A stretch of 35,376 nucleotides of DNA from Microcystis novacekii Mn_MB_F_20050700_S1. Its GTDB lineage: Bacteria; Cyanobacteriota; Cyanobacteriia; Cyanobacteriales; Microcystaceae. Below, piece after piece: positions 9,184-35,376 of the stretch. The translations under genes were made by a program, and so were the position numbers. Numbering within the stretch: the stretch's first letter is position 1; every line of letters begins with the position of its first letter. Location: the NCBI GenBank assembly GCA_007096045.1, contig SFAU01000168.1:1-35376 (forward strand), written 5' to 3'. The notes beneath the pieces are model-generated. The model saw only the letters and a program-made list of their open reading frames with translations, was not told the origin of the DNA and did no database searches.

Positions 9184-9226
9184 TCGAGTATAACAGAGGC
9201 AGGGGGCAGGAGGCAGGGGGCAGGGG

Positions 9227-9345
9227 TAGGGTTGATTCATAGTAGGGTTGATTCATAGTAGGGTTGATTCATAGTAGGGTTGATTCATAGTAGGGTTGAT
9301 TCATAGTAGGGTTGATTCATAGTAGGGTTGATTCATGAATCAACG
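9227..9345. repeat. 16-bp tandem repeat, seven copies, ending in a palindrome
   Basis: Seven identical copies of tagggttgattcat start every 16 bases from 9227 to 9323, separated by the dinucleotide ag. The last copy runs directly into its own complement (gaatcaac), making an 18-bp perfect palindrome centred near 9336. A G-rich stretch (gcagg/caggggg) precedes the array. A related array in opposite orientation closes the window at 35274-35376. There are no unique spacers, so this is not a CRISPR. The 370 bases from 9157 to 9526 hold only this array, the hairpin before it and the mini-element after it. Confidence 0.95.
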
Positions 9346-27197: not shown

Positions 27198-28002
27198 AAT
27201 GCTCCGCTAACCAATTATCAATGTCCCCTAAAACTAAGTCGGGGATTTCCCAGGGAAACAGATGGGCTGTATCCGGGTAACATTTCCACCCAGACAGTTT
27301 CAGGTTTTCGGCCGTTTCTTGGCTCGAGGCACTGGTAATATGGCGATCCTTTGCCCCCGCCAGAACTAAGCAGGGAATTGTGATTTTGTCAAGAGATTTT
27401 AAACAATTGTTACCTTTTTTTAAAGCCCGATTTAAAGCGCGATTAGCTGCTGGAGAAGTGCCTAAGTAGGCAGGAACAGCATCTTGAGCAAGATAGCGAT
27501 AGGTGATCGCTTGATGTTGTGAAAAAAGGTACTGAAACAGGGAACGACGAGCAAAAGTATCAATATTCCAACGCCATCCCGGTTTGATCTGATTGAGAAT
27601 TGCCGCTATCCCCGTCAAAACTAAATCTGTGGTGGTGATGGGAGGATGACTACCCCAAGGCCGCGCGGCCGAGGCCACCAGAATTAAACCGGGAAAGCGC
27701 TCCGGATGCCGCAATACTAATTCCAGGGCGATTATACCCCCCAAAGACCAACCGAGAATTAAACATTGCTGGATTTTTTGGCGATCGAGCAGCTCGATTA
27801 AATCCTCTAGATGTTCTTCTAGCTGAAAATCCCGGCGATAACGACTTTTACCGTAGCCGCGCAGATCCGGGGCCAGGGTTTGCCAGCGTTGGCAAAAATG
27901 ATCGGTAAATACAGACATACTATCCGCCGAACCGGGATGACCGTGCAGACAGAGAATCGGATAGCCATTACCTTTGATCTTAACGTTTAGAGCGATCGAC
28001 AT
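27175..28002 (-). CDS. alpha/beta hydrolase, intact catalytic triad
   Basis: This 275-residue serine hydrolase has the oxyanion loop LCLHGHPGSADS (18-28), the APDLRGYGKSR strand-turn, and the nucleophile elbow ILGWSLGGI with S86. The acid is D219 in LAGAKDRHI and the histidine H247 in YPDTAHLFPWEIP. A helical cap spans about 120-190. Substrate is not readable; esters of small acids are likely. A role like BioH in biotin synthesis is possible given general similarity and a bioB-bioY pair elsewhere in the window, but nothing in the sequence proves it. The start is followed upstream within five bases by heptad repeats, so its promoter is in or beyond them. Confidence 0.85.
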   Translation of the reverse strand: MSIALNVKIKGNGYPILCLHGHPGSADSMSVFTDHFCQRWQTLAPDLRGYGKSRYRRDFQLEEHLEDLIELLDRQKIQQCLILGWSLGGIIALELVLRHPERFPGLILVASAARPWGSHPPITTTDLVLTGIAAILNQIKPGWRWNIDTFARRSLFQYLFSQHQAITYRYLAQDAVPAYLGTSPAANRALNRALKKGNNCLKSLDKITIPCLVLAGAKDRHITSASSQETAENLKLSGWKCYPDTAHLFPWEIPDLVLGDIDNWLAEHFSDKLAE

Positions 28003-28006
28003 TGAG

Positions 28007-28163
28007 CAGTTATCAGTTATCAGTTATCAGTTATCAGTTACCAGTTATCAGTTATCAGATTTGAGTTTTAAGTGAGCAGTATGTATTAAGCGAGCAGTAT
28101 TAAATAGCAGTTTCCTACTGTCTTTTCGCTGTTCACTGTTTACTATTTACTGATCACTGATTA
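28007..28163. repeat. heptad (STRR) repeat arrays upstream of rnpB
   Basis: Seven heptads of cagttat (one cagttac) run from 28007 to 28055. Five of the complementary type (ctgttca, ctgttta, ctattta, ctgatca, ctgatta) run from 28129 to 28163. The two arrays are inverted relative to each other and could pair imperfectly. The same heptad family recurs inside rnpB, after rnpB, and at 31163 and 33671. Confidence 0.85.
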
Positions 28164-28214: not shown

Positions 28215-28689
28215 AGGAGAGAGTTGGTCTAGAGGTTGCGGGGTCATTTGATCAATGATTCCGAGGAAAGTCCGAACTCCCGAAAGACCACACTTGCTGG
28301 ATAACGTCCAGTGCGCGCGAGCGTGAGGATAGTGCCACAGAAAAATACCGCCCCCTTTTTTCAGTGATCAGTAAACAGTAACGAAAGTAAATTTACTGAT
28401 AACTAATAACTTTCCACTGATAACTGATAACTGATAACTGATTGGGGGTAAGGGTGCAAAGGTGCGGTAAGAGCGCACCAGCAGTATCGACAGGTACTGG
28501 CTCGGTAAACCCCGGTGGGGAGCAAGGTGGAGGGACAAAGGTTGGTCTTTTTCCTGTCCCGTTTTTAGGAACCGCTTGAGGTAATTGGTAACAATTATCC
28601 CAGATAGATAACCTCTATTCCAACAAAGGTAAAAGCGATTTTACTGCTGTTGGGAAATACAGAATTCGGCTTATGTCTGACTCTCTCCT
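28215..28689 (+). ncRNA. rnpB: RNase P RNA (type A, cyanobacterial) with expanded P12
   Basis: This is the catalytic RNA that matures tRNA 5' ends. Both ends pair to form helix P1: aggagagagt (28215-28224) with actctctcct (28680-28689). The core motifs are gaggaaagtcc (5' half of P4), cagtgc..., gtgccacagaaa with taccgcc (J11/12 region), ggtaagggtgcaaaggtgcgg, the long agcgcaccagcag hairpin, and ggtaaacccc. The 3' half has agatagataacc and attcggcttatg. Helix P12 is enlarged by about 80 bases of heptad repeat. Length is about 475 bases against about 380-460 for typical relatives. The gene precedes rnc. No distinct terminator is visible. Confidence 0.95.
28362..28442. repeat. heptad-repeat extension inside rnpB helix P12
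   Basis: Heptads cagtgat, cagtaaa and cagtaac on the left are complementary to the ctgataa-type heptads on the right (seven of them, one ctaataa). The extension can therefore fold as a long hairpin on top of the ccccc/ggggg stem base. The repeat unit is the same family as the arrays outside the gene. Confidence 0.85.
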
Positions 28690-28769
28690 TTATCAGTTAT
28701 CACTGATCACTGATCAGGAGATTATTTTTATTTATTCTCCCCCCGCAACGCGCACGAAGTGGTCTCCCC

Positions 28770-28889
28770 ACACCCTACACCCTACACCCTACACCCCACA
28801 CCCTACACCCTACACCCTACACCCCACACCCCACACCCCACACCCTACACCCCACTTCCCCATCCCCCATCCCCCATCCCCCATCCCCC
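28770..28889. repeat. C-rich heptad repeats in front of rnc
   Basis: About a dozen tandem acaccct/acacccc units are followed by four or five atccccc units. The frame through them is open and joins rnc, giving a Pro/His/Thr-rich peptide that is not part of RNase III. They occupy most of the 214-base space between rnpB and the rnc start. Confidence 0.85.
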
Positions 28890-28903: not shown

Positions 28904-29608
28904 ATGTCCTTAAGTGATCCGCGTCGCCAAAAACAATTAAAAACCCTAGTGGAAAAGTTAGGTTTATCGGCTGATGTCCCCGTTAGGTGGGATTTATTAG
29001 ATTTGGCCCTAACTCATCCCAGTGTTTCCCGTGATAAGAATTATGAACAATTGGAATTTGTGGGCGATTCTGTGGTAAGACTCGTGGCGGCGGAGGTATT
29101 GTTAGAAACCTATCCGGAGGCGCTCGTGGGAGAATTTGCCGCCCTGCGATCGATGATGGTTAGCGATCGCACTCTGGCGGAATTTGCGGATCGCTACGGT
29201 TTCGAGCGTTATTTGTTGGTGTCAAGTAGTACGAGTATCGATCAAGCGGGGCAAATTTCCCGACTAGCAGATGCTTTTGAGGCGGTCTTGGGAGCATTAT
29301 ATCTTAGTACACAGACAATGATTTTAGTGCGTTCTTGGTTAGATGAACCACTAAGGGAAAAAGCGGCCGAAATTCGTCGAGATCCGGCCCGGCAGAATTA
29401 TAAGGATGCCTTGCAAGAGTGGACACAAGCAACATACAAAAAACTACCGCAATATTTAGTCAAAGAAATCAATGGTTTAGATCAAGAACGTTTTTGTGCG
29501 GAAGTGTGGTTAAATGAGCAGAAATTAGGAGTGGGAACTGGCAGAAGCAAAAAAGCAGCGGAACAGGCAGCGGCTAAATCGGCTTTTCTAGAAGTGGTTA
29601 AAGGCTAA
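28904..29608 (+). CDS. rnc: ribonuclease III
   Basis: This 234-residue double-strand RNA endonuclease acts in rRNA and mRNA processing. The nuclease signature is NYEQLEFVGDSVVRLVAAEVL with its catalytic Glu and Asp, and the second acidic set is in RLADAFEAVLGALYL. A dsRNA-binding domain (NYKDALQEWTQATYKKLPQYLVKE... AEQAAAKSAFLEVV) completes it. The frame is open back to 28673, but that would begin inside rnpB and run through tandem repeats. I chose the ATG at 28904, where conserved sequence (MSLSDPRRQKQLKTLVEKL) starts. No good ribosome binding site is seen before it. The position directly after rnpB is notable, as both products process RNA. Confidence 0.93.
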   Translation: MSLSDPRRQKQLKTLVEKLGLSADVPVRWDLLDLALTHPSVSRDKNYEQLEFVGDSVVRLVAAEVLLETYPEALVGEFAALRSMMVSDRTLAEFADRYGFERYLLVSSSTSIDQAGQISRLADAFEAVLGALYLSTQTMILVRSWLDEPLREKAAEIRRDPARQNYKDALQEWTQATYKKLPQYLVKEINGLDQERFCAEVWLNEQKLGVGTGRSKKAAEQAAAKSAFLEVVKG

Positions 29609-30782: not shown

Positions 30783-31076
30783 CTAAGAAGGTCGATTTTT
30801 TTCGTTTTTCAGGGTTGGTAAAGCTACTTGACCCGATTGGGGCGGTAAATAATATCTCGCTGCTTCTTCTTTGTTGATTTGCTCGGTTTTTTGGCCCTGT
30901 TGCCACCGGGCGAAGATAGCGCTCGCCATAATCGTTGCCCCTAAAGATAGCAGTGTCCATCTTTGTCCTACAACCCCGATGATGACATCTACTGCCGCTA
31001 CGGTAAAGATAAAGCTAGTTATTGGTTCTTGACGGTAAGCTTTCTTGAGAAAACGCGGCCAGAGGAGATTACTCAT
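30783..31076 (-). CDS. small membrane protein of unknown function
   Basis: This 97-residue protein has a basic start (RFLKKAYRQEP), two hydrophobic segments (FIFTVAAVDVIIGVVG and LLSLGATIMASAIFA) joined by a short turn, and a soluble, Gln/Pro-rich tail (YYLPPQSGQVALPTL). It lies 87 bases upstream of the WD40 gene on the same strand and may share its transcript. I recognise it only as cyanobacterial-looking; no domain name applies. Confidence 0.65.
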   Translation of the reverse strand: MSNLLWPRFLKKAYRQEPITSFIFTVAAVDVIIGVVGQRWTLLSLGATIMASAIFARWQQGQKTEQINKEEAARYYLPPQSGQVALPTLKNEKNRPS

Positions 31077-31162
31077 TTTATCTATTATTTCTACGGTTTC
31101 GATAATTCCAGCTTATCCTATCATCCTAAAAAATGTTGTCGATCGGGTGATGGGGGGTTTTT

Positions 31163-31204
31163 CAGTGAGCAGTAATCAGTAAACAGTGAACAGTAATCAG
31201 TAAA
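31163..31204. repeat. heptad repeat, six units
   Basis: Six units cagtgag, cagtaat, cagtaaa, cagtgaa, cagtaat, cagtaaa stand in the 351-base intergenic space between the small membrane protein and the GH57 gene. They belong to the same family as the arrays around rnpB. The rest of the gap holds the hairpin described separately. Confidence 0.85.
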
Positions 31205-31427: not shown

Positions 31428-33668
31428 ATGACCTATCCTCTCTACGTCGCTTTTATTTGGCATCAACACCAACCCCTTTACAAATCCTGTCAAACTCGCG
31501 CGGATGCTTCGGGACAATATCGCTTACCCTGGGTGCGACTGCATGGAGTGAAAGATTATCTCGATTTAATCTTAATTCTAGAACGTTACCCGAAATTACA
31601 CCAAACTGTCAACCTTGTCCCCTCTTTAATCCTGCAATTAGAGGATTACGTCAACGGACTAGCTATAGACCCCTATCTTGCTCTCACCGTCACCCCAGAA
31701 GCGCAATTAACCCTAGCACAAAAACACTTTATCCTCGAACACTTTTTCGATGCTAACCATCGTACCCTGATCGATCCGCACCCCCGTTACGCCCAATTAT
31801 ACGCACAGCGTCAAGAAAACGGTCATAGTTGGTGTATTAGCCATTGGCATCTTCAAGATTATAGCGATCTCTTAGCTTGGCATAACCTCGCTTGGATTGA
31901 TCCTATCTTTCACAGTGACCCAGAAATCGCTACTTGGTTAGAACAGGGAAAAAACTTCACTTTAAGCGATCGCCAGCGAATTATCTCCAAACAGCGTCAA
32001 ATTCTGCGTCGTATCTTGCCGCAACATCGGTTAATGCAGGAAACTGGACAACTAGAAATCATTACCAGTCCCTACACCCATCCGATTTTACCCCTGCTGG
32101 CCAACTCGGAAGCCGGCCGGGTAGCGGTGCCGAATATGACCCTTCCTCGCCAATATTTCCGCTATCCTGAAGATATTTACCGCCATCTCCGGAAAGCTTG
32201 GCAAATCTATATCGATCGCTTTGATAAACAACCTCGAGGACTTTGGCCCTCGGAACAATCCGTTAGTCCCGCAATTCTCCCCGCTGTCGCTAAACAGGGT
32301 TTTCAGTGGTTGTGTTCCGATGAGGGGGTGTTAGGTTGGTCCCTGGGACATTACTTTCATCGCGACGAAAAAGGCAATATTAGCGAACCAGAATTGCTTT
32401 ATCGTCCCTACCTTCTGGAAACTAGCAACGGCAATTTATCCATGGTTTTCCGCGATCATCGTCTCTCAGATCTGATCGGATTTAGCTATAGTGGCATGAA
32501 AGCGCAAGAGGCCGCTACAGACTTAGTTAAACACCTAGAAGCGATCGCCGAACAACTAAAAACCAACACCGAAACCACGACCCTAGAAAAACCCTGGTTA
32601 GTTACCATTGCGCTAGATGGCGAAAACTGTTGGGAAAACTATCATCAAGACGGTTTACCCTTCCTAGAGAACCTTTATCAACTTTTAAGCGACCATAAAG
32701 AGATCGAATTAGTCACAGTTTCCGAATATCTCGATCGCTTTCCCGCTAAGGCAAAAATTCCTGTCCATAAACTTCATAGCGGCTCTTGGATCGATGCCAA
32801 TTTTACCACTTGGATCGGCGATCCCGCTAAAAATAAAGCTTGGGAATATCTAATTTTAGCCCGTCAAACCCTCGCTAATCACCCGGAAGCGACGGAAGAT
32901 AATAACCCCGATGCGTGGGAAGCATTGTATGCAGCGGAGGGTTCCGATTGGTTTTGGTGGTTTGGTTATGGCCATTCCTCCAATCATGACGCAATTTTTG
33001 ACCAACTTTTCCGCGAACACCTAATCGCTCTTTATCAAGCTTTAAATGAGCCAATTCCCTCCTATTTGCTCGAACCGGTGGAAGAACACGGGGATAAACA
33101 AAGTAATCGTCCTGAGGCTTTCATTCACCCCATTATCGACGGTTTTGGAGACGAACAGGATTGGGATAAAGCTGGACGGATCGAAATTGGCGGCGCCAGT
33201 GGTACGATGCACCGGGCTTCGTTAGTACAAAGGCTCTTTTTCGGTTGGGATCACCTCAATTTTTATCTGCGTTTCGATTGGAAACCGGGGGCAGAATTAG
33301 GCAAAGATATCCCGCCTGAAGTGCATTTATATTGGTATTATGATGAAGTGCATCGTCTGCAAAGTCCAATTCCCCTAGCAGATATTCCCCCTCGATCGCC
33401 CCTCGATTACGGTTATCATCATCATCTAGGAGTTAATTTAATCACGGAATTTACTTGGTTAGAAGTAGCTCAAGAATATTTTACTTGGCAGCGAGTTCCT
33501 AGTAGTGCCAAAGCTTCTTTTAATCAATGTTTTGAAATTGCTGTCCCCTGGGAAGGATTACACATTGAACCCGATGATCGTCTCCATTTAATCGCAGTTT
33601 TAGCCAATCAAGGTCAATACTATGATTTCCTCCCCGTTGAAGAATTAATCTTCCTACAAAGACCTTAA
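31428..33668 (+). CDS. GH57 family glucan-active enzyme, long form
   Basis: This 746-residue GH57 protein has the N-terminal signature YVAFIWHQHQPLYKS. The nucleophile is E276 in GLWPSEQSVSP and the acid/base is D397 in VTIALDGENCWENY. It also has HSGSWIDANFTTWIGDPAKNKAWEYL and WFWWFGYGHSSNHDAIFDQLFR, typical of the amylopullulanase/alpha-amylase-like branch. A beta-rich C-terminal domain of about 170 residues (RPEAFIHPIIDGFGDEQDW... to the end) may bind glucan. The likely role is glycogen or maltodextrin breakdown or transfer; the exact activity cannot be read. There is no signal peptide, so it is cytoplasmic. It is preceded by the hairpin and followed by heptad repeats. Confidence 0.88.
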   Translation: MTYPLYVAFIWHQHQPLYKSCQTRADASGQYRLPWVRLHGVKDYLDLILILERYPKLHQTVNLVPSLILQLEDYVNGLAIDPYLALTVTPEAQLTLAQKHFILEHFFDANHRTLIDPHPRYAQLYAQRQENGHSWCISHWHLQDYSDLLAWHNLAWIDPIFHSDPEIATWLEQGKNFTLSDRQRIISKQRQILRRILPQHRLMQETGQLEIITSPYTHPILPLLANSEAGRVAVPNMTLPRQYFRYPEDIYRHLRKAWQIYIDRFDKQPRGLWPSEQSVSPAILPAVAKQGFQWLCSDEGVLGWSLGHYFHRDEKGNISEPELLYRPYLLETSNGNLSMVFRDHRLSDLIGFSYSGMKAQEAATDLVKHLEAIAEQLKTNTETTTLEKPWLVTIALDGENCWENYHQDGLPFLENLYQLLSDHKEIELVTVSEYLDRFPAKAKIPVHKLHSGSWIDANFTTWIGDPAKNKAWEYLILARQTLANHPEATEDNNPDAWEALYAAEGSDWFWWFGYGHSSNHDAIFDQLFREHLIALYQALNEPIPSYLLEPVEEHGDKQSNRPEAFIHPIIDGFGDEQDWDKAGRIEIGGASGTMHRASLVQRLFFGWDHLNFYLRFDWKPGAELGKDIPPEVHLYWYYDEVHRLQSPIPLADIPPRSPLDYGYHHHLGVNLITEFTWLEVAQEYFTWQRVPSSAKASFNQCFEIAVPWEGLHIEPDDRLHLIAVLANQGQYYDFLPVEELIFLQRP

Positions 33669-33670
33669 AT

Positions 33671-33726
33671 CAGTGATCAGTAATCAGTAATCAGTAATCA
33701 GTTTTTTAGTTATCAGCTATCAGCTA
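33671..33726. repeat. heptad repeats after the GH57 gene
   Basis: cagtgat plus three cagtaat units, a T run (gttttttag), and then two cagctat-type units follow the GH57 stop codon within three bases. The T run after the repeats could help termination, but no strong hairpin precedes it. Confidence 0.75.
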
Positions 33727-35260: not shown

Positions 35261-35376
35261 TAGGGTTGATTCATGAATCAACCCTACCTTGAATCAACCC
35301 TACCTTGAATCAACCCTACCTTGAATCAACCCTACCTTGAATCAACCCTACCTTGAATCAACCCTACCTTGAATCA
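35259..35376. repeat. 16-bp tandem repeat array, truncated by window edge
   Basis: A 30-bp perfect palindrome (35259-35288, arms ggtagggttgattca and its complement) opens an array of tgaatcaaccctacct units with 16-base period. Six are complete from 35274 to 35369, and a seventh is cut by the window end. The core (tgaatcaaccct) is the reverse complement of the unit at 9227-9336; only the two linker bases differ (cc here, ct in the complement of the ag linker there). Repeats continue outside the window. Confidence 0.95.

Follow-up and report, generated by a model that had tools for sequence, protein, structure and literature searches.

The locus considered here raises the question of how the gene of an essential RNA can come to carry, in one of its helices, the same 7-nt repeats that are scattered over the rest of the genome. 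It is located in a stretch of 35,376 nt from Microcystis novacekii Mn_MB_F_20050700_S1, called the window below, which constitutes a whole contig (SFAU01000168.1, C77 in our numbering) of the 4.70-Mb assembly GCA_007096045.1. The gene is rnpB, which encodes a bacterial type A RNase P RNA, and the repeats are found in its helix P12. We consider it quite likely that this is an ordinary and probably active RNase P RNA, the P12 hairpin of which was colonised by dispersed heptads before the sampled Microcystis lineages diverged and has been changing since. The location in P12, the repeat family shared with the genome, the 7-nt step of the arm lengths, a longer block shared with dispersed copies, and the absence of exact period-7 runs from the rest of the gene are all observed directly.

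The expanded P12 arm in Microcystis

The window gene matches the Rfam model RF00010 from end to end (positions 28220–28688 on the forward strand, model positions 1–367 of 367), and its score of 244.6 bits is well above the gathering score of 100, which identifies it as a type A RNase P RNA. No second rnpB was found in the assembly. According to the covariance-model alignment, an insert of 78 nt relative to the Rfam consensus is situated at 28359–28436, between the two strands of P12, and the helix with its expanded arm occupies 28350–28448. A preliminary description of the window, made from the letters alone, had called the gene canonical apart from ca 80 bases of heptads in P12; the alignment bears this out, also with regard to the P12 boundaries. 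The tandem 7-nt repeats inside the helix are arranged as an inverted pair. Namely, a run of T residues is followed by a left arm of three CAGTNNN units (28362–28381), with CAGTGATCAGTAAACAGT, then by the loop core AGTAACGAAAGTAAATT (28377–28393), and finally by a right arm of seven NNNACTG units (28394–28442), in which ACTGATAACT and similar units continue until 28442 and which is also recognised as a period-7 tract by Tandem Repeats Finder.

When the arm is folded in isolation (28350–28447), an energy of −25.6 kcal/mol is obtained, compared to a mean of −12.5 kcal/mol for 200 dinucleotide shuffles (z = −4.51), none of which is as stable. It is important to point out that the left arm measures 19 nt and the right arm 48 nt, that is, 2.5 times as much, and since the halves are unequal the arm is not a full duplex. 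In the thermodynamic ensemble, ca 73% of the left-arm positions have a partner in the right arm, whereas a partner in the left arm is available to only 29% of the right-arm positions, and the heptad pairs contain about one mismatch each, as judged by eye. The earlier statement that the two halves are complementary is thus right in kind, the arm indeed folding back on itself, but overstated in extent.

The comparison within the genus comprised 12 genomes, the one of the window included. Seven of these genomes are identified as Microcystis by name, in keeping with the unicellular genus that the preliminary description had supposed. In all 12 genomes, rnpB scores above the cut-off and P12 carries heptads, and the P12 segment, whose length had been proposed for comparison between strains, ranges from 77 to 178 nt (closing bases included). 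The right arm measures 20, 48, 69 or 83 nt in the 12 genomes, while the left arm measures 19, 26 or 33 nt in the ten without a nested block, to which the arm alignment was confined; all of these differences are steps of 7. The shortest arms, of 19 and 20 nt, are found at two loci (L002 and L003) and are nearly symmetrical. The T run before the left arm varies between 5 and 8 residues across the genus, as counted by eye.

The loop core is identical in all 12 genomes. At up to one mismatch it has one match per genome, always inside rnpB, and the same sequence read backwards gives a single match in the 12 genomes (in G001). Since the core occurs once per genome, and there in rnpB, the arm predates the split of the 12 lineages. 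An assembly artefact was considered and rejected, as four genomes assembled into one or two contigs each (G001, G002, G009 and G011) carry an arm of the same type. We have also attempted to obtain a well-resolved history of the Microcystis arms, which had to be given up: in the tree of the 12 flank sequences, two of the nine inner branches are starred and one row (L002) is long. The tree being mostly unresolved, arm gains and losses could not be ordered.

A loop core that is invariant in 12 of 12 genomes could also mean that the expanded P12 is under selection, for example as a protein-binding site, and in archaea and eukaryotes expansions of the P12 tip do add such sites, according to PMC12974513. 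We regard this as quite improbable for the present case. The length of P12 varies widely within the genus, as given above, its sequence family differs between genera, and one of five Synechocystis-group genomes has no expansion (L046, as opposed to L023, L036, L044 and L059). Furthermore, PMC2858038, citing Vioque 1997, states that P12 can sometimes be dispensed with, cyanobacteria being an example. The expanded P12 can be explained without a new function.

Dispersed heptads and the composite block

The heptads of P12 are not confined to rnpB. Using Tandem Repeats Finder, period-7 tracts of the same family were located in the window not only in P12 (28395–28442) but also on both sides of the gene (28007–28058 and 28699–28716) and at two further places (31162–31203 and 33668–33702/33711–33726), just as the preliminary description had noted. 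In the whole assembly (G000), a threefold ACTGATA unit at up to three mismatches has 774 + 709 matches, overlaps counted, while the reversed control has 2 + 4, and the P12 family is thus dispersed in the host genome. The ACTGATA units of the right P12 arm are also direct repeats of the TAACTGA type, which on the other strand are found at 28007–28058.

The polarity of the arrays was examined in 400 kb of one genome (G011, stretches L219–L238) together with the window. For neighbouring arrays of at least two units that are at most 500 nt apart, the order CAGT-then-ACTG was found 19 times, the reverse order once and the same direction six times; with arrays of at least three units, the corresponding counts are 11, 0 and 4. 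The polarity of P12, with CAGT to the left and ACTG to the right, is the same as that of the genomic arrays. A T run of at least four residues is present within 12 nt upstream of 12 of the 42 arrays of at least three units, compared to 9.3% of background windows. Inverted pairs of such fixed polarity are reminiscent of the two ends of an element. Among the hallmarks of a miniature inverted-repeat transposable element (inverted termini, target-site duplication and a parent transposon), these counts address the inverted polarity (19 versus 1).

A more direct connection between P12 and the rest of the genome is provided by two of the Microcystis genomes (G002 and G003), in which the left arm of P12 contains an extra palindromic block. 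It belongs to a dispersed composite element of Microcystis, in which a 26-nt palindromic block with the core GCCAAAGGCACGGCGTAGCCGT is embedded in CAGT heptads, as in the left arms of loci L009 and L011. The block is near-invariant, and in most cases a T run stands before it. When up to two mismatches are allowed, the 22-nt core of the block is matched 103 times in the 12 genomes (counts summed, the two in rnpB included), and the control has no match. Thirty loci were inspected, giving 32 matches with two places represented twice, and in 28 of these 32 the block has heptad context on both sides. Among 27 distinct exact block sequences, one is that of rnpB, and 24 of the other 26 have the exact context CAGT-GTT...C-CAGT. 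None of the 27 places lies inside an open reading frame of at least 100 amino acids. With each of the 26 outside copies, the P12 of G003 shares 35–48 identical nt and that of G002 33–40 nt. G003 has one more copy on the opposite strand, at a distance of 68 nt upstream of rnpB.

A block that is identical over 33–48 nt to copies elsewhere is not a product of slippage, whereas insertion of, or recombination with, dispersed copies can make it. The assembly of G002 in two contigs speaks against an assembly error. These exact matches, of up to 48 nt in G003 and 40 nt in G002, uphold the suggestion of the preliminary description that a repeat can invade an essential RNA at P12.

They also bear on another explanation, namely that slippage turned an ancestral P12 sequence into heptads at the site itself, and that these resemble the dispersed repeats only through convergence on a favoured 7-nt unit. 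This would be consistent with length steps of exactly 7, with a loop core that is found in rnpB only, and with the weak match between P12 heptads and genome heptads in some lineages. It is, however, partly refuted for G002 and G003 by the shared block, and three P12 families are enriched genome-wide in their carriers (see the next section). We therefore regard growth in place alone as unlikely.

P12 in other cyanobacteria

To see how general the expansion is, P12 was surveyed in 182 rnpB genes, which represent the 12 genomes of the genus, 34 of the 37 other genomes of the family with a match, and 136 of the 243 matched genomes of the order outside the family. The search of the order matched 271 of 291 genomes; the survey was drawn from the matches listed, so that lower-scoring genes are absent and the sample is not random. 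One gene is partial (L182), and in another (L040) the P12 segment was cut too short (9 nt), the true P12 being short as well.

P12 is at least 50 nt long in 88 of the 182 genes. The best period of these long P12s is 7 in 66 of the 88, and in 62 of the 76 that come from other genera; shuffled sequences display no such preference. Exact period-7 runs of at least 8 are found in the P12 of 53 genes and in the rest of the gene in none of the 182, which again agrees with invasion specifically at P12; at periods 6 and 8, runs were seen outside P12 in two and four genes, respectively, and never in P12. The length of P12 has a standard deviation of 32 nt, compared to 12.7 nt for the rest of the gene. 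When the long P12s are folded and compared to 60 shuffles each, 75 of 88 have z below −2, and four are above −1.

The sequences fall into several families, such as CAGTGAA/TAACTGA, TTTGTCA/GGACAAA, ATTTTGG/CCAAAAT, GAGATTT and AAGGCAG/CATCCTT, and others; the assignment was made by hand-made rules, which leave 17 long P12s unclassed. One genus (code g11) contains both the GAGATTT and the ATTAGTC type (families E and A). The polarity of Microcystis, defined as two or more CAGT in the left half together with two or more ACTG in the right, is present in 22 of the 88 P12s of at least 50 nt (12 in the genus and 10 outside), while the reverse polarity, or one unit twice in both halves, is present in none of the 88. 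Among 19 sequences outside the genus labelled as the T family (four of them added by hand), the left half has 47 CAGT to 1 ACTG and the right half 43 ACTG to 4 CAGT. Since the rule for the label itself uses the CAGT/ACTG motifs, this last count is partly circular, and the label-free count is the 22 of 88.

A pattern scan aimed at the T family found it in seven Microcystis, including M. aeruginosa Ma_MB_S_20031200_S102 (G003) and M. wesenbergii FACHB-1317 (G010), in Synechocystis salina LEGE 00031, Crocosphaera sp. MO_167.B6, Xenococcus sp. PCC 7305, Pleurocapsales LEGE 06147 and a metagenome-assembled genome of the Xenococcaceae, and in many heterocyst-formers, for example Nostoc, Calothrix, Scytonema and Chlorogloeopsis. 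A readable P12 was obtained from 34 of the 36 named stretches, L204 and L206 being without a usable segment. As the scan targets the family by design, it shows where the family occurs, not how often. Microcystis forms no heterocysts, and heptad P12s are also present in further unicellular or colonial genera, namely Synechocystis, Crocosphaera and Xenococcus. In the latter (L155, G079, strain PCC 7305), a second, unrelated hairpin-like block was observed nested among the left-arm heptads. A tree of the rnpB cores gives 54 changes when all families are distinguished, 27 for long versus short and 14 for T versus not T, numbers that are rough only, since the gene is short, the tree was built quickly and the rules for the families were set by hand.

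We now consider whether the heptad in P12 is the genome's own repeat. Five heptad families were counted genome-wide in 46 genomes chosen by P12 type, and genomes were found to be enriched in their own P12 family for T (p = 0.0012), D (p = 0.0005) and W (p = 0.0002), in one-sided Mann–Whitney tests that treat related genomes as independent and with counts that include the P12 copy.

Several observations weigh against a dispersed origin of the P12 heptads or against a conserved full-duplex fold of the arm. Two families, P and K, are not enriched in their P12 carriers (p = 0.12 for both). In one genome (G105), two of four matches to its own P12 heptad lie outside rnpB, neither of them exact, and three Synechocystis-group genomes with a T-like P12 have zero or one T-pattern match. 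Two of the 32 inspected block matches, with two mismatches each, stand outside heptads. As to the folding, most right-arm positions have no partner in the left arm in 10 of the 12 same-genus genomes, which means that full-duplex folding is not a conserved feature. For the correlation between the arm lengths (Spearman 0.87), relatedness and the nested block of two rows are confounding factors. Some genomes are moreover rich in a family that is absent from their own P12, with 383 T matches in G095 and 1020 K matches in G134. We also considered the rule that the heptad in P12 is in every case the dominant one of the genome, and rejected it, as it fails for the P and K families. In many genomes, but not in all, the repeat in P12 is also a common one genome-wide; this is a tendency and not a rule.

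Taking these results together, a heptad tract may have reached the P12 tip when a dispersed element recombined with it or inserted there. Slippage would then have lengthened and shortened the tract in units of 7, and now and again there would have been further exchange. Because inverted CAGT...ACTG heptads fold back, the foreign tract would be confined to one peripheral arm, and this would account for the absence of heptads from the rest of the gene. As P12 is peripheral and the inverted heptads fold back on themselves, the insert would be tolerated, with the catalytic core still folding, and it is probably neutral. One can also speculate that P12 is a live recipient of ectopic copying, that is, that some process writes inverted CAGT...ACTG pairs and composite blocks into hairpin tips all over the genome, the products surviving in rnpB. 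We find this conceivable but rather doubtful; if it were true, a comparison of rnpB between strains would reveal the rules of the copying.

Genomic surroundings and known systems

In the window, rnpB is flanked by an alpha/beta hydrolase gene on the opposite strand, whose open reading frame ends at 28002, and by rnc, the gene of RNase III, at 28904–29608 on the same strand as rnpB (PF00636, 2.7e-20; PF00035, 1.1e-12; the ATG at 28904 is the start chosen in this analysis). An RNase III gene lies downstream on the same strand in all 12 same-genus loci, and within 1.5 kb on the 3' side in 29 of the 62 loci with flanks (L001–L062). This neighbourhood, the long imperfect hairpin and the resemblance to the intervening sequences of 23S rRNA, which are hairpin-shaped inserts at an exposed helix tip of an essential RNA, could together suggest that RNase III cuts the P12 hairpin and leaves a two-piece RNase P RNA. 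However, rnc adjoins rnpB genes with a short P12 too (e.g. L013 and L046), which means that the neighbourhood is not tied to the insert, and the linkage was accordingly rejected as evidence of processing. In addition, the duplex is broken by a mismatch about every 7 nt, as seen by eye. We therefore consider cleavage very improbable; most likely, judging from sequence, the transcript keeps the insert as an elongated and partly mismatched P12.

The other arrays of the P12 family in the window are placed as follows. Between the hydrolase frame and rnpB there is an inverted pair (28007–28159), composed of a CAGTNNN array (28007–28058) and an NNNACTG array ending at 28159. Just 3' of rnpB, compact heptads (28694–28717) are found in the mechanical upstream extension of the rnc frame, before its likely start. 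A third array (31162–31204) intervenes between open reading frames ending at 31076 and starting at 31428, and a fourth (33668–33726) begins at the stop of the frame 31428–33668, the last position covered by the list of frames used for placing the arrays.

Other repeats were also observed. Two different heptad families, CCCTACA and CCCCATC, occupy 28766–28889 between rnpB and rnc, and are crossed by the upstream frame of rnc. Perfect 16-nt tandem arrays are present at 9226–9336 (ca seven copies of GTAGGGTTGATTCATA) and at 35274–35376 (ca six copies of TGAATCAACCCTACCT), the latter reaching the contig end; as judged by eye, each unit is nearly the reverse complement of the other. When plasmid records were searched, partial matches only were obtained. 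A 19.4-kb M. aeruginosa plasmid (NZ_AP024566.1) has at least 40 places matching the P12 heptads, and there are matches of short rnpB-like pieces in plasmids recorded for Paenibacillus, Tsukamurella and Legionella.

We finally turn to the systems that are already known. P12-tip expansion segments exist in archaeal and eukaryotic RNase P RNA, according to PMC12974513; they are located at the same tip, whereas the Microcystis expansion consists of simple repeat units that also occur elsewhere in the genome. With the intervening sequences of 23S rRNA the present case has in common the hairpin shape of the insert and its place at an exposed helix tip, the likeness not extending to evidence of excision.

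As to the repeat itself, MacGregor 2015 (PMC4679880) lists 265 TAACTGA sets in M. aeruginosa NIES-843, with 22 of 24 mapped sets intergenic. The unit ACTGATA is a rotation of TAACTGA, and the sets described there differ in being direct repeats, together with one indirect repeat in a Maribeggiatoa genome. The main text of that paper has no occurrence of RNase P or rnpB, and among the titles and abstract openings listed by searches of open-licence papers, none pointed to a heptad-bearing P12 in Microcystis or in any other unicellular genus.

The closest relative is the P12 expansion of heterocyst-forming cyanobacteria. It was reportedly described by Vioque in 1997 as short tandem repeats of varied families in the RNase P RNA gene, located in P12; the non-heterocystous strains of that study are said to have been without repeats, and the repeat not to have been needed for catalysis in vitro. 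The two cases are alike in the RNA, reportedly in the helix, in the short tandem repeats and, again reportedly, in the varied families among relatives. They differ in the hosts, which here are unicellular or colonial (Microcystis, Synechocystis, Crocosphaera and Xenococcus), and the present data add a long block shared directly with dispersed copies. That Microcystis is not a heterocyst-former suggests a limit of the 1997 sample and not of the kind.

Colonisation of P12 by repeats is thus not tied to heterocysts, and it recurs in the sampled part of the order in steps of 7 nt, in P12 and, judging from exact period-7 runs, nowhere else in the gene. This makes rnpB a natural gauge of the spread of heptads in bacteria and a clean system for studying it, and also means that the length of rnpB, and of amplicons spanning P12, varies between strains of one genus. 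For heterocyst-formers, the 1997 work reportedly put forward the general idea already, and Microcystis extends a known phenomenon to unicellular cyanobacteria; what is new here is the wider scope of hosts and the better evidence of where the repeat comes from.
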